Both the position numbers and the translations under genes were made by a program. This document shows, one piece after another, positions 15,765 to 20,566 of a DNA stretch of 64,000 bases. This DNA comes from Ottowia testudinis (GTDB taxonomy: Bacteria > Pseudomonadota > Gammaproteobacteria > Burkholderiales > Burkholderiaceae_C). The notes beneath the pieces are model-generated. The model was given only the letters and a program-made list of their open reading frames with translations, ran no database searches and was not told the origin of the DNA. Each line of letters opens with the position of its first letter. The stretch's first letter is position 1. The stretch is taken from the NCBI RefSeq assembly GCF_017498525.1, contig NZ_CP071796.1, positions 3,534,001 through 3,598,000 of the forward strand, read 5' to 3'.

Positions 15765-17465
15765 ATGCCGCCACCCATTGAGCGACTGCTGCCCTTTTTG
15801 CGCTGGCCGCGCCCGTCCGCGGACCTGCTGCGCGGCGAGGCGGTGGCGGGTCTCACGGTCGGTCTGATGGTCATTCCGCAGGGCGTGGCCTACGCCCAGC
15901 TGGCCGGCATGCCGCTGGTGACGGGCATTTATGCCTCGATGCTGCCCGCGCTCATCGCCGTGATGTTCTCGGCCTCGGCGCGGCTGTCGGTCGGGCCGAC
16001 GGCGTTGACCAGCCTGTTGATCCATGCCTCGCTCAGCCCGCTGGCGGCGCCGGGCAGCCCCGAATGGGTGGCGCTGGCGGTGTGGCTGGCGCTGATGTCG
16101 GGCGTGCTGCAGGTGGCGCTCGGCATGTTCAGGTTCGGCTGGCTGCTCAACCTGATCAACGCGCCGGTGCTGATGGCCTTCACGCAGGCGGCGGCGGCGC
16201 TCATCATCGGCTCACAGCTGCCGGCACTGCTGGGTTTTCGCGGTGGCTGGGGCGAGATGCTGCATCGGCCGAGCATCAACCCCCTGGCCGCCGCCTTCGG
16301 CGTGCTGGCGCTGGCGCTGCTGCTGCTGGCGCGCCGCTGGCGGCCGACGTTTCCGACCGTGCTGGTGATCGTCGTCGCGGCGGCGGCCTTGGGCTGGGCA
16401 CTCGGTTTTGAAGCCAGCGGCGGCGCCGTGGTGGGCCCGCTGCCTCGGGGCCTGCCGGCGCCTTACCTGCCCGGCTGGCCGGGCTGGCATGCGTTGGGCC
16501 AGTTGCTGATGCCGACGCTGGTCATCACGCTGGTGAGTTTTCTGGAGACCGCCTCCAGCGCCAAGGTGGACAGCCAGCGCAAGGGCGAACGCTGGGACCA
16601 AGACCAGGATCTGATCGGCCAGGGCCTGGCCAAGATCGCCTCGGGCTTTTCGGGTGCCTTTGCCACCAGCTCGTCGTTTTCGCGCTCGGCGCTCAATCTG
16701 TACGCTGGCGCGCGGACCGGCTGGGCGACGGTGGCGTCGGTGTTGTTGGTGCTGGCGGCGCTGCTGCTGTTCACGCCAGTGCTGCGCCACGTGCCACAGG
16801 CGGTGCTGGCGGCCATCGTCGTGGCGGCGGTGCTGGGCTTGCTCAAGCCGCGCGAATTCGTGCGGCTGTGGCACATCTCGCGCGTCGAAGCGGTGACGGC
16901 TGCGCTGACCTTCGGGGTCACCCTCGCGGCCGCGCCAGCGCTGTACTGGGGCGTGCTGACCGGGGTGCTGATGTCGCTGTCGCTGTTCCTCTTCCAGCGC
17001 CTGCACCCGCGCATCATCGAAGTCGGCCTGCACGCGGACGGCAGCCTGCGCGACCGCCACCTGTGGCATCTGCCGGCACTGGCGCCGCACACGTACGCGC
17101 TGCGCATGGATGCGGCACTCGACTTCGCCACCGCCGCGCAGTTCGAGCGCGAGGTGTCCGAATACCTGAGCCAGCACCCCCACACGCGCCACGTCTGCCT
17201 GTTCGCGCAGCCCATCAACCGCATCGACGCCACCGGTGCCGAAGCCTTCGTGCGCCTGATGTCGCTGCTGCACCAGCGGCGCGTGACGCTGCACGTGAGC
17301 GGCATCAAGTTGCCGGTCGAACGCGTGCTGCACGCCGCCGGCGCGCTGGCGCCCCACCCGCTGCTGCAGCTGTACCGCACCGACGCCGAGGCGCTGGCGG
17401 CACTGCGCGCCATCGCCGAGGCCGAGCGCGCGGAGCCTGCCGACTTGCCGGCAACGGCGATCTGA
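15765..17465 (+). CDS. SulP-family anion transporter with STAS domain
   Basis: An inner-membrane transporter of 566 residues in the SulP family, which moves sulfate, bicarbonate or other anions. The SulP signature is near the N-terminus: AGLTVGLMVIPQGVAYAQLAG, then GIYASMLPALIAVMF and SVGPTALTSLL. SGAFATSSSFSRSALNLYAG follows in the second half of the membrane domain. The cytoplasmic STAS domain occupies about 445-545 (YALRMDAALDFATAAQFE, INRIDATGAEAF). The substrate cannot be assigned. It stands alone, divergent from the DUF4124 gene, and is followed by repeats. There is no carbonic anhydrase gene next to it that would hint at bicarbonate. Confidence 0.92.
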   Translation: MPPPIERLLPFLRWPRPSADLLRGEAVAGLTVGLMVIPQGVAYAQLAGMPLVTGIYASMLPALIAVMFSASARLSVGPTALTSLLIHASLSPLAAPGSPEWVALAVWLALMSGVLQVALGMFRFGWLLNLINAPVLMAFTQAAAALIIGSQLPALLGFRGGWGEMLHRPSINPLAAAFGVLALALLLLARRWRPTFPTVLVIVVAAAALGWALGFEASGGAVVGPLPRGLPAPYLPGWPGWHALGQLLMPTLVITLVSFLETASSAKVDSQRKGERWDQDQDLIGQGLAKIASGFSGAFATSSSFSRSALNLYAGARTGWATVASVLLVLAALLLFTPVLRHVPQAVLAAIVVAAVLGLLKPREFVRLWHISRVEAVTAALTFGVTLAAAPALYWGVLTGVLMSLSLFLFQRLHPRIIEVGLHADGSLRDRHLWHLPALAPHTYALRMDAALDFATAAQFEREVSEYLSQHPHTRHVCLFAQPINRIDATGAEAFVRLMSLLHQRRVTLHVSGIKLPVERVLHAAGALAPHPLLQLYRTDAEALAALRAIAEAERAEPADLPATAI

Positions 17466-17520
17466 TTGCTATTTTTTTGAGAGCTTCTTGCGCTTGATGG
17501 ACGGGCGCTGGGGGCTGATT
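17466..17520 (+). repeat. REP-like palindrome, copy 4 (decayed)
   Basis: TTGCTATTTTTTTGAGAGCT, then TCTTGCGCTTGATGGACGGGCGCTGGGGGCTGA-type sequence, is a degenerate copy directly after the SulP stop. The right arm has diverged and no longer pairs well. Confidence 0.5.
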
Positions 17521-18016
17521 TCTCTTGAATCAGCTTGATGAAAACCATGGGCTTGATTGGCGCGCGGCGGTTTTGTTCCGAACGGCGTCGCCTTCACCCC
17601 AACCCTCTCCCAGAGGGAGAGGGGGCAAGACAAAAGGCCGAGAGCAGCGATGGCCCGAGTGGGCTTTCAACCCCTTCTGGCCGTGCCGAGAAGCACAGGG
17701 CGTGGGGCGGGCCGGCAGCGCAGCATGCCGGCTTTGTGCTCTGACTCGCTGCCGCTGTTTGAGCGAAGAGAACGCAGTGAACGAAGCGAGTTCGGCAGCG
17801 CCGCCCTACGACCGAGCATCGCAGGTTGCCCCGAAGGGGACACAGCCAGTGGGGCCGCCTTTCTTTGCCTACTTTCTTTGGCGGAGCAAAGAAAGTAGGT
17901 CGCCCGCCGGGGCGAACTCCCGGCCGACCGCGCGCCCAACACCACAACACCCGTTATCACCCCAAAAGCAGGCAGGACGAGAGCCACAGCAAACCCCAGT
18001 GTCTTTCAAGCCCCCG
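17521..18016. repeat. Gene-free block of intergenic repeats
   Basis: I see no credible gene in these 500 bases. They hold CCCTCTCCC-AGAGG-GAGAGGG near 17600, a block with GAACGCAGTGAACGAAGCGA near 17770, and a perfect 13-bp stem CCTACTTTCTTTG/CAAAGAAAGTAGG around GCGGAG near 17870-17900, followed by GTCGCCCGCCGGGGCGAA. Such blocks, as I recall them, recur between genes in many Beta- and Gammaproteobacteria. Small frames over the block on both strands have no domain content. Confidence 0.6.
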
Positions 18017-18439
18017 TCAGGTGTGACCCACGACGCTCGCCGTCGCCATCAAGTCCTCGATCAAGGCCAGCGAGGCGCGGCCCGACACCGCATACGGATC
18101 GAGCACCGCGCGCTCCGAATACTTCAGCAGCACGCTGGCGTTGACGCGCTCGGCATTGACCAGCCCCATCGTCCAGCCGCCAAAGCGGCGCTCGGTGATC
18201 TCTTCGTAATGCAACAGCACCACGTCCTGGTGGCGCGCATCCTTGTGGATCACGCCATACAGGTCGCTGATGGTCTGGCGGCCGCCTTCGATGCATTGCA
18301 TGAAGATGCCGCCGCCAAATACCAGCACGCCGGTGACGCCATGGTCGGCGTTGTGCTGGCGCGCGCTGGCGCAAATGGCGTTGACGGCGGCGGCCGATGA
18401 ATCGACAGCGCGGCTGGCGTAAAGCAGGCGAACGAGCAT
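18017..18439 (-). CDS. BLUF-domain blue-light photoreceptor
   Basis: A 140-residue short BLUF protein that would bind FAD and sense blue light. All four key residues are present with normal spacing: Tyr7 (LLYASR), Asn30 (ARQHNADHGVTGVLVF), Gln48 (FMQCIEGG) and Trp89 (FGGWTMG). The Tyr-Gln pair and Asn form the hydrogen-bond network that switches on illumination. There is no output domain, only a C-terminal helical cap, so it must act through a partner protein. The ATG is 2 bp after the folE stop, so the two genes are probably translated together. No cyclase, phosphodiesterase or MerR regulator, common BLUF partners, is nearby. Its target is unknown. Confidence 0.92.
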   Translation of the reverse strand: MLVRLLYASRAVDSSAAAVNAICASARQHNADHGVTGVLVFGGGIFMQCIEGGRQTISDLYGVIHKDARHQDVVLLHYEEITERRFGGWTMGLVNAERVNASVLLKYSERAVLDPYAVSGRASLALIEDLMATASVVGHT

Positions 18440-18441
18440 GG

Positions 18442-19167
18442 TCAGTTCTTTTGCGGGATGAGGGAGAGAAATTCGCGCCGCAGGTTGGCGTCCTTCAGGA
18501 ACACGCCGCGCATGACCGAGTTGATCATCTTGCTGTCCATGTCCTTCACGCCGCGCCAGGCCATGCAGAAGTGGGTGGCCTCCATCACCAGCGCCAGGCC
18601 GTCGGGCTTGGTTTTTTGCTGGATCAGGTCGGCCAGCTGCACCACGGCTTCTTCCTGGATCTGCGGGCGGCCCATGATCCATTCGGCCAGGCGGGCGTAT
18701 TTCGAGAGGCCGATGACGTTGGTGCGCTCGTTGGGCATGACGCCGATCCACAGCCTGCCGATGACCGGGCAGAAGTGGTGGCTGCAGGCGCTGCGCACGG
18801 TGATGGGGCCGACGATCATCAGCTCGTTCAGCCGCTCGGCGTTGGGAAACTCGGTGATCTCGGGCGCCTTGACGTAGCGGCCCTTGAACACCTCATGGAC
18901 ATACATCTTGGCCACGCGGCGCGCGGTGTTGCCGGTATTGTGGTCGCGCTCGGTGTCGATCACCATGCTGTCAAGCACGCCTTCCATCTTGGCCGTCACT
19001 TCGTCGAGCAGATTCTCGAGTTCGCCGGGTTCGATGAAGTCGGCGATGTTGTCGTTGGCGTTGAAGCGGCGGCGCGCGGCCTGCAGGCGCTCGCGGATCT
19101 TCACCGAGACGGGTGTGCCTTCGTCGGTGGCGTCGGCCGCCGGGGAGAGATCGGGGGAGGATTTCAT
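18442..19167 (-). CDS. folE: GTP cyclohydrolase I
   Basis: This enzyme opens GTP to 7,8-dihydroneopterin triphosphate, the first step of folate and pterin synthesis. The product has 241 residues. The core is clear: VKIRERLQAARRRFNANDN, NTARRVAKMYVHEVF, the zinc and active-site segment RSACSHHFCPVIGRL, ERTNVIGLSKYARL, and ATHFCMAWRGV with the second zinc Cys. The usual EHH is SHH here, a variant in the residue before the histidines. The ATG at 19167 removes a poorly conserved upstream extension. nudB, which acts on the FolE product, lies two genes upstream on the same strand. The BLUF gene follows after 2 bp. Confidence 0.93.
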   Translation of the reverse strand: MKSSPDLSPAADATDEGTPVSVKIRERLQAARRRFNANDNIADFIEPGELENLLDEVTAKMEGVLDSMVIDTERDHNTGNTARRVAKMYVHEVFKGRYVKAPEITEFPNAERLNELMIVGPITVRSACSHHFCPVIGRLWIGVMPNERTNVIGLSKYARLAEWIMGRPQIQEEAVVQLADLIQQKTKPDGLALVMEATHFCMAWRGVKDMDSKMINSVMRGVFLKDANLRREFLSLIPQKN

Positions 19168-19210
19168 GGGCGCACCGATGGTAGCAGCAAAGGATTTTGC
19201 ATTGAACAAG

Positions 19211-19258
19211 GCCCTGGCGCTTGCAGGACAAGCGCGAGCAGCTATACTTTTTATAGTT
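19211..19258 (-). repeat. REP-like palindrome, copy 5
   Basis: Read on the minus strand: AACTATAAAAAGTATAGCTG, then CTCGCGCTTGTCCTGCAAGCGCCAGGG. It sits between the EEP-family gene and folE, and its outer end touches the stop codon of the former. Confidence 0.8.
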
Positions 19259-20045
19259 AACCGACGGGGGCGTTGGGCGCCTGTTGCGGCAAATGGAACT
19301 CGGCGATCAGCGGCAAATGGTCCGACATGCGGCTCCACACGCGCCCGCGCGGCGCCGCCAGGCTCAAGGGGCGCAGGCCGCGCGCATAGATGTGGTCGAG
19401 CTGCGCCACGGGATAGCGCGACGGATAGGTCAGCGTGCGCGGGCCTTCAAACGCGTGCAGCGAATCGACGCGCAGCAGCCGCCGCACGCGCGTGCCCCAG
19501 TCGTTGAAGTCCCCGGCCACCACCACCGGCTCGTCGAGCGGGATCTCGCGCGCGATATAGGCTTTCAGGCGCGCGGTCTGGCGCACGCGGCTGGAAGGGA
19601 TCAACCCGAAATGCACCACGATGGCGTGCACCGTCACGCCCGCCACCAGCAGCTTGGCGTGCAGCAGGCCGCGCTGCTCGAAGCGGTGGTCGGACATGTC
19701 TTCGTGCTGGCAGCCGATGACGGGCCAACGCGACAGCAGCGCGTTGCCGTGTTCGCCATGCTTGGTGACGGCGTTGGTGCGGTACACCGCCTCATAACCC
19801 TCGGGCGCCAGGAACTGGGCCTGCGGCAGATCGGGCCAGCCGGTGAAATAGCTGGCCTCCTTGCGGTTGCCTTGCCGCACCTCTTGCAAGCAGACGATGT
19901 CGGCGTCGAGCGTCTCGACGGCCAGCGCGAGGTTGTGGATTTCGAGCCGGCGCGCGGGGCCCAGCCCCTGCACGCCCTTGTGGATGTTGTAGGTGGCGAC
20001 GCGCAGAACATCTTGGCGCTCGCCGAAAGTCGAATCCACCGTCAT
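19257..20045 (-). CDS. Endonuclease/exonuclease/phosphatase (EEP) family protein
   Basis: A 262-residue metal-dependent hydrolase of the EEP fold, which cleaves phosphodiester or phosphate esters. Catalytic landmarks are in order: VATYNIHKGVQG (metal Asn), IVCLQEVRQG (metal Glu), HGNALLSRWP, HAIVVHFGLIP (His), VVVAGDFNDWG (Asp/Asn), LDHIYARGL, and MSDHLPLIAEF (catalytic Asp-His). The ATG overlaps the nudB stop as ATGA, so the two are coupled. In other betaproteobacteria this gene is often next to a cardiolipin-synthase-like gene, which is absent here. The substrate is unknown. The stop lies in a REP-like palindrome. Confidence 0.9.
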   Translation of the reverse strand: MTVDSTFGERQDVLRVATYNIHKGVQGLGPARRLEIHNLALAVETLDADIVCLQEVRQGNRKEASYFTGWPDLPQAQFLAPEGYEAVYRTNAVTKHGEHGNALLSRWPVIGCQHEDMSDHRFEQRGLLHAKLLVAGVTVHAIVVHFGLIPSSRVRQTARLKAYIAREIPLDEPVVVAGDFNDWGTRVRRLLRVDSLHAFEGPRTLTYPSRYPVAQLDHIYARGLRPLSLAAPRGRVWSRMSDHLPLIAEFHLPQQAPNAPVG

Positions 20046-20530
20046 GCGGTCACCTTGGAAAAGCGCGGCAGCAACAGACACGCCTCTGCATTGGAGGGCG
20101 AGAAGCATTGGCCGGCCGCCTCGCGATAGGGCAGCCAAACAAAGGCTGAATGCTCGCGTGGGTTGAGCGTCACGGTGGCATCGGGCGGCACGCACAGCCC
20201 AAAGACGTGCTCGCGGTTGCGTGTCACGCCGGGGGCGTAACGCGCGCGCCAGCGGGGATAGATGTCATACACGTTCTCGAGCTGCCAATCGGTCAGCCGG
20301 CAGCCGGGCGCCTGCGGGTCTAGGCCCGTCTCTTCGCGCACCTCGCGCGCGGCCGTGTGCGCCAAGGGCTCATCCACGGTGTCCTTGCTGCCGGTGACCG
20401 ATTGCCAGAATTCACCCGGCGCCACATCGGCGCGCCGCATCAGCAACACATCGAGCGCCGGCGTGTGCACGACCACCAGAACGGATTCGGGAATCTTGAA
20501 GCGATGGGGCGCGACCGGGTTCACAGGCAT
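20042..20530 (-). CDS. nudB: Dihydroneopterin triphosphate diphosphatase (Nudix)
   Basis: A Nudix hydrolase that removes pyrophosphate from dihydroneopterin triphosphate, the product of FolE, in folate synthesis. The product has 162 residues. It starts RFKIPESVLVVVHTP, as NudB proteins do. The Nudix box reads GSKDTVDEPLAHTAAREVREETGL in pattern (GX5EX7REVXEEXG), and the later YDIYPRWRARYAPGVTRNREHVF stretch is typical of NudB. ATG 20530 is preferred; a GTG three codons upstream is also possible. It is coupled to the EEP gene by an ATGA overlap. Its closeness to folE supports a role in the same pathway. Confidence 0.92.
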   Translation of the reverse strand: MPVNPVAPHRFKIPESVLVVVHTPALDVLLMRRADVAPGEFWQSVTGSKDTVDEPLAHTAAREVREETGLDPQAPGCRLTDWQLENVYDIYPRWRARYAPGVTRNREHVFGLCVPPDATVTLNPREHSAFVWLPYREAAGQCFSPSNAEACLLLPRFSKVTA

Positions 20531-20566
20531 TTGCGGCACCAGGCCCCGTCGCGCGGCAGCCGGCGC

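Follow-up and report, generated by a model that had tools for sequence, protein, structure and literature searches.

The folE gene of Ottowia testudinis, which encodes a divergent GTP cyclohydrolase I, is followed after two bases by a gene for a short blue-light receptor of the BLUF type. Both genes lie in the 64,000-nucleotide stretch of contig NZ_CP071796.1 that we analyzed (positions 3,534,001 to 3,598,000 of the forward strand; hereafter the window), and the features on which our argument draws are listed here in window coordinates.

18017..18439, minus strand: BLUF photoreceptor gene, 140 aa, start ATG at 18439-18437, end of frame at 18017
18440..18441, minus strand: spacer from the folE stop to the BLUF start, 2 bases
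18442..19167, minus strand: folE, divergent GTP cyclohydrolase I (CSHH subfamily), 241 aa, ATG at 19167-19165, TGA at 18444-18442
18484..18495, minus strand: codons 225-228 of FolE, loop leading into the C-terminal helix, matching human GCH1 236-239 in the alignment, beside the GFRP-contact residue R235
18607..18621, minus strand: codons 183-187 of FolE, end of the second core helix, on the same edge
18724..18732, minus strand: codons 146-148 of FolE, loop that follows strand 2, retained chiefly in the presence of BLUF
19257..20096, minus strand: endonuclease/exonuclease/phosphatase family gene between nudB and folE, context only
20042..20539, minus strand: nudB, dihydroneopterin triphosphate diphosphatase (NF006961, 199.8 bits, cut-off 103)

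A preliminary description of this DNA had the BLUF reading frame beginning 2 bp past folE and named Tyr7, Asn30, Gln48, and Trp89 in its product; the minus-strand coordinates bear out the spacing, and all four residues stand at the positions given. The direct neighbors of the BLUF gene are folE and, on the opposite strand, a sulfate permease gene. The enzyme encoded by nudB catalyzes the pterin step after FolE, and its gene lies on the same strand, one gene upstream of folE; we treat it as context and not as a demonstrated part of a folE-BLUF unit. A promoter scan of 17450-19400 predicted no site, and terminator-like sites in that interval showed no excess over shuffled sequence. Downstream of the BLUF gene, positions 17869-17898 form a perfect inverted repeat (arms of 12 bases, loop of 6), the one match in the window, where none was expected by chance. 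The genome is a single 4.32-Mb contig in which the window BLUF is the only match to PF04940 and the window FolE the only match to PF01227 (E <= 0.001). FolE2 (PF02649) had no match anywhere in it, and a second, housekeeping FolE was found with neither PF01227 nor PF02649.

The window FolE matches the Pfam model GTP_cyclohydroI (PF01227) at 145 bits (cut-off 27) and the NCBI equivalog TIGR00063 at 148.4 bits, below that model's cut-off of 181.6, and we therefore regard it as a member of a divergent subfamily. It bears the motif RSACSHH(F/L)CP; the E. coli-type and animal enzymes aligned with it show CEHH at this place. Residues C128, H130, H131, S155, K156, and C201, which we take to be the zinc site and substrate residues, are present in every aligned row readable there. 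The CSHH enzyme falls under the NCBI FolE cut-offs even though it is the only FolE match of its genome, and annotation pipelines may under-call such proteins.

The BLUF protein scores 98.1 bits against PF04940 (cut-off 25), and no other Pfam domain was matched in its 140 residues; an output domain is absent. Its closest solved structure is TePixD (Tll0078), and the alignment, covering residues 2-130, thus reaches the C-terminal region, which carries the signal in PixD (PMC5899715). A PixE-like response-regulator gene is not among the direct neighbors of the window BLUF. The flavin site consists of Y7, N30, Q48, W89, and M91, and it is conserved across the 130 BLUF proteins linked to folE: Asn30, Gln48, and Trp89 occur in all 130, Met91 in 129, and Tyr7 in 128. 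With these residues kept, light sensing appears, as judged from the alignment, to be under selection in the linked proteins, with rare natural exceptions. Two such variants, at L035:8001-8420 and L089:8001-8426, have Phe in place of Tyr7 and retain the gene pair; here the photocycle has possibly been lost and the protein retained. (We take COT in the record name of L035 to stand for canine oral taxon.) Comparison of the 130 linked proteins with 11 other BLUFs yielded V3, R10, G53, E83, N100, A125, and A134 as clade-typical positions. On the gene tree, in which L139 is a long branch joined to a second long branch, the linked proteins come close to a single clade, two changes being needed to separate them from the same 11.

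An adjacency confined to a few close strains would have told against the preliminary description; counted across genomes, it is wide. Our family sample comprised 150 genomes from the GTDB family of the window, and our order sample another 150, including four of that same family. Among the matches listed, the FolE subfamily was present in 143 of the 150 family genomes, and BLUF lay directly downstream on the same strand in 126 of these (123 by listed coordinates, two more, G012 and G086, and G008 by locus sequence). Four contigs (G074, G083, G101, and G102) end right after folE and were taken out, which leaves 139 assessable genomes: 126 with BLUF behind folE and 13 without it. One further genome had a BLUF and no FolE match (G117), and another a low-scoring FolE match only (G032). 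The order sample held this FolE in 28 genomes (at least 382 bits; the next best genome reached 127) and a high-scoring BLUF (at least 169 bits) in 18, every one of them among those 28; the genes are adjacent in 17 of the 18, and the remaining 10 FolE-bearing genomes lack such a BLUF. The exception, G170, carries FolE and BLUF near the ends of two contigs between which no overlap was found, and it was counted as nonadjacent.

Samples of 229 genomes from the class and 378 from the phylum yielded this FolE outside the order in just G445 and G807, with BLUF adjacent in both. The locus of G807 (L194) is nearest L178 in both the FolE and the BLUF gene trees, and that of G445 (L182) is placed less consistently. 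For family code f32 in the phylum sample, five of six genomes were checked, and the pair was found in G754 and G822 and not in G180, G224, or G818. All told, ten family codes of the order contain the pair, as do two genomes from beyond the order, and the link is not universal.

Searches that began from BLUF gave the same picture. Each of the best 80 of 129 named BLUF relatives is preceded by a folE match on its own strand, that of L081 being partial and broken by unread bases. Of the 30 loci around the best family-sample BLUF matches, 27 have an upstream folE, and in the other three the BLUF is just 33-38% identical. We rejected a local accident as the explanation of the adjacency, because the pair recurs across the family sample, the order sample, and the named relatives. 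The spacer measures 2 bp in 33 of 130 pair loci (22 duplicate loci left out). Nine plasmid records contain this FolE; BLUF is present in four of them, all from Cupriavidus and all adjacent, and none was found at the limit used in two Caballeronia records, two from Burkholderia, and one from Roseibium (Alphaproteobacteria). One genome, G027, holds two folE-BLUF pairs (C176:65232-66202 and C56:15583-16575). Two contigs labeled as Akkermansia muciniphila and Bordetella parapertussis metagenome bins (L078 and L112) carry folE-BLUF genes that resemble those of Comamonadaceae or Alcaligenaceae, and their species labels are probably binning or labeling errors.

The genes outside the pair are far less constant. 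Neighbors were assigned by a crude homology-based choice of open reading frames and by clustering, and by that measure the pair is unbroken in 62 of the 63 loci that could be parsed among 80 from named relatives. The commonest type of gene precedes folE in 38 of 55 cases and follows BLUF in 27 of 56. All 16 pair loci from other families of the order or from beyond it (L167-L182) keep the pair intact, and the genes flanking it belong, on either side, to 16 different clusters. The pairing is more than a shared neighborhood. Comamonadaceae relatives show a recurring run of aspS, nudB, endonuclease-family, phospholipase D-like, folE, and BLUF genes, named partly by resemblance. FolE and BLUF distances are correlated at 0.63; this figure was obtained with no control protein, and we therefore do not use it as evidence of interaction.

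Comparing loci with and without BLUF allowed us to ask which FolE residues follow its presence. We compared 32 nearest pairs of FolE proteins with and without BLUF against the expectation from with/with pairs of like identity; the 32 include L135, L137, L143, and L152, in which a contig end near folE leaves BLUF status unsettled. K225 differs in 18 pairs (2.8 expected), residue 148 in 22 (7.8), E147 in 18 (5.7), N146 in 8 (0.2), Q183 in 22 (10.1), D226 in 13 (2.5), and N228 in 25 (14.7). An excess is also seen elsewhere in FolE, as at V99 (20 of 32, 10.6 expected) and V175 (11 of 32, 2.2 expected). For contrasts that respect phylogeny, we built a FolE tree of 116 rows, 29 of them without BLUF, leaving nine of the contrasted columns out, thinning the with-BLUF rows at 93% identity (87 of 130 kept), and excluding from the tree, the independent contrasts, and the relabelings the four unsettled loci together with the canonical-like L117. 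BLUF status has changed repeatedly, with at least 19 changes needed on this tree. On the best tree, about 18 independent contrasts favor retention of K225 with BLUF and its loss without BLUF by 11.6 to 1.0, and in 16-19 contrasts the corresponding figures are 7.8 to 0 for E147, 8.8 to 0.9 for H148, 9.0 to 1.0 for N228, and 9.2 to 1.6 for Q183. The starred branches support only five independent contrasts, in which K225 stands at 3.5 to 0.1. Five with-BLUF FolEs lack K225, and after correction for 202 positions no single FolE position survives.

These positions cluster along an edge of the fold. An AlphaFold2 model of FolE (pLDDT 83.9, pTM 0.78) places strands at 117-127, 134-144, 190-199, and 214-221, and in the antiparallel order of the T-fold, the ends of strands 2 and 4 and the start of strand 3 share one edge. 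We defined this edge as residues 145-153, 183-190, and 221-229, 26 of the 202 positions, a boundary drawn after the hits were known. It contains seven of the top eight BLUF-dependent positions, and 77.8 of a total net excess of 204.7 falls there; in 150 random relabelings of with-BLUF rows, the edge never took more than 20.4 or more than three of the top eight. Without the genomes that have two FolEs, the edge holds 63.0 of 164.2 and all eight top positions (at most 17.0 and four of eight in 200 relabelings), and the opposite edge of 25 positions holds 17.9. When the 29 longest-branched with-BLUF rows were treated as pseudo-losses, the edge took 7.6 of 59.6 and none of the top eight. In 15 of 18 pairs, it is the BLUF-less FolE that sits on the longer terminal branch. 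The total excess of 204.7 for real losses exceeds the at most 69.8 of the relabelings; part of the edge excess therefore reflects faster change, and the sharper figure is the edge's share, 38% of the excess in 13% of the positions. The relabelings show that the clustering is not a general property of variable loops, and they do not by themselves establish contact as its cause. The preliminary description had suggested that BLUF may bind FolE, a suggestion to which the BLUF-dependent positions of the alignment lend indirect support.

By alignment and topology, the same edge appears to carry the loop through which animal GTP cyclohydrolase I contacts its regulatory protein, GFRP. At the C terminus, residue n of the window FolE corresponds in our alignment to residue n+11 of human GCH1, provided that the solved chain ends at 250, so that 224 pairs with R235, 225 with E236, 226 with D237, 228 with K239, 230 with R241, and 232 with E243. 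The C-terminal loop of FolE is thereby aligned with R235-R241 of the human enzyme, and according to PMC7750480 that human loop both contacts GFRP and lines the BH4 pocket, in which R235, R241, and E243 take part; GFRP pentamers are placed there on the five-fold axis of the D5 GCH1 decamer. R230 and E232 never vary among the 160 rows that could be read at these positions. Position 224 is Leu in 159 and Met in one, and the R235 contact with GFRP is therefore not itself conserved. The other two segments of the edge would, from topology, lie near the GFRP face as well.

BLUF and FolE are very likely coupled in function. We put at roughly one in two the probability that BLUF is a dedicated, light-responsive regulatory partner of FolE, like GFRP in function and a different protein. 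More tentatively, and as somewhat less likely than not, we propose a specific form of this partnership: a five-fold BLUF ring that caps the FolE decamer, a light-gated analogue of GFRP exerting direct posttranslational control over the first enzyme of pterin and folate synthesis, encoded by a two-gene unit that spans much of the Burkholderiales and was carried to a few genomes beyond. The two proteins would probably be made from one message, and a BLUF ring of the PixD type would dock on the outer face of the ten-subunit FolE, along the edge to which three segments contribute: the loop that follows strand 2, the last part of the second core helix, and the loop leading into the C-terminal helix. 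Under blue light, the contacts among the flavin, Gln48, and Tyr7 would rearrange; Trp89 and Met91 would relay the change to the C-terminal helices; and the ring would loosen or leave, altering the output of FolE. The direction is a guess by analogy with PixD-PixE, with FolE bound and restrained in the dark and released in the light to yield more pterin. Light destroys reduced pterins and folates, which is why more might be made when it is present. FolE forms stacked pentamers (PMC7750480 and PDB chain numbers), PixD crystals contain two stacked pentamer rings (PMC5899715 and PDB chain numbers), and the dark PixD-PixE complex falls apart in light (PMC5899715). Were both partners five-fold symmetric, a BLUF ring would fit naturally, in geometric terms, on the face of FolE. 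An AlphaFold2 run on a read-through FolE-BLUF chain (20 rows or loci, one chain, no oligomer) gave a pTM of 0.39 and no placement.

Known systems resemble the proposed one in part. PixD of Synechocystis and TePixD are, like the window BLUF, stand-alone short BLUF proteins with C-terminal helices, and PixD, like BLUF in our model, acts with a separate partner protein; that partner is the response-regulator-like PixE, however, and not a metabolic enzyme. GFRP offers the likeness of a small protein seated, as we propose for BLUF, on the axial face of a decameric GTP cyclohydrolase I near the C-terminal loop. BLUF differs from it in sequence, being matched in Pfam by the BLUF model alone, in the presumed signal, light rather than BH4 and phenylalanine, and in facing a FolE with Leu or Met at the position of human R235.

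The strongest rival, which we nevertheless hold to be unlikely, would have BLUF act on a transcription regulator encoded elsewhere, with folE merely cotranscribed in a light-response unit. Its models are E. coli BluF acting on BluR and Pseudomonas PmSB-LOV acting on PmlR2. E. coli BluF has an EAL domain, unlike the window BLUF, and acts on a MerR-family regulator; it shares with the present case a BLUF photoreceptor working on a separate partner. The BluF-BluR pair is named in PMC9758184. In P. mendocina, the folM-folE-folX operon lies close to pmlR2, a MerR-family gene, and to a gene for a short LOV protein; the LOV protein acts through PmlR2, and folE is light induced (PMC9758184). The likeness is thus a blue-light flavoprotein gene near folE and an effect of light on pterin genes; the differences are a LOV rather than a BLUF domain, control of transcription by a MerR-family protein, and the folM-folE-folX operon (PMC9758184). 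In our own loci, L178:7904-11803 shows MerR, folE, BLUF, DCC, and SDR genes in this order on one strand (DCC by homology to a gene of L102), and MerR or ECF sigma genes stand beside BLUF-less FolE in 6 of the 31 loci searched, two of the six being sources of the queries. ECF sigma genes lie near the BLUF-less FolE copies of L145, L148, L150, L197, L199, and L200, with MerR-family genes in L197 and L199 as well, and these surroundings are reminiscent of the Pseudomonas light-response clusters; perhaps, and this is speculation, such FolE copies have exchanged BLUF control for transcriptional control. Where both genes are present, however, a MerR, SDR, or ECF query matched in just 1 of 149 loci (some duplicates, some with 1.5-kb flanks), and transcriptional control gives no reason to expect BLUF-dependent positions along a single edge of FolE. 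The same edge signature counts against coexpression without interaction, which we consider quite improbable, whether the pair is taken as a convenient operon joining a flavin protein to a pterin enzyme or as inherited gene order. Very short spacers are compatible with translational coupling, and the nearness of the linked BLUFs to one clade does mean that much of the linkage is vertical inheritance; yet the pair stays while its outer neighbors differ, and both genes stand side by side in the two genomes outside the order that the class and phylum samples gave. Simple coexpression with flavin and pterin functions, which the preliminary description had raised, is the less likely of its suggestions.

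BLUF might also bind FolE as a structural or redox-sensing subunit for which light is not the main signal. The two Phe7 variants keep both the pair and the edge residues of FolE, and many of the sampled lineages are not known to be phototrophs; the near-universal Tyr7 and the universal Gln48, Asn30, and Trp89 of the linked proteins point instead to a selected photocycle and render this reading distinctly improbable. Least probable of all, in our estimate, is a role in photoprotection, in which light would regulate the supply of folates and pterins as cofactors of photolyases and cryptochromes. In five Zwartia-type loci (L091, L099, L102, L109, and L112), an MFS gene and genes of photolyase type come after the pair, four of the five add a pterin carbinolamine dehydratase, and six Hydrogenophaga-type loci have lumazine synthase near the pair; example loci were compared with Pfam and NCBIfam for these names. 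PF03441 is missing, however, from 19 of the 150 family genomes, 14 of which bear the pair, the genome of the window among them, and PF04244, which 70 genomes have, is missing from all of these 14 as well. Completeness reaches at least 95% in twelve of them and is 74 and 76% in the other two, G040 and G104. Since 14 genomes carry the pair without either photolyase model, we rejected photolyase-cofactor supply as its general reason; such a link may exist in some lineages.

Among the literature matches listed, a scope outside which lie most subscription papers and all bioRxiv preprints, no title or opening of an abstract dealt with a BLUF-GTP cyclohydrolase pairing, and we know of no BLUF protein that gates primary metabolism directly. 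A separate tie between light and pterins is described in PMC3546692, in which pterins and GTP cyclohydrolase affect phototaxis in Synechocystis. A short BLUF with a dedicated partner is known; what would be new is a metabolic enzyme as the kind of partner. Direct light-gated regulation is the candidate mechanism with the best support. The Pseudomonas link between LOV and folE by transcription (PMC9758184) makes a recurring tie between blue light and pterin supply testable. If our proposal is true, a partner would be assigned to a widespread clade of orphan BLUF proteins, a small capping protein that regulates GTP cyclohydrolase I would have arisen outside animals too, and a two-component optogenetic handle on folate supply would be at hand. 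For this large group of bacteria, the flow into folates and pterins would be governed by light, through direct contact between a photoreceptor and a core metabolic enzyme.
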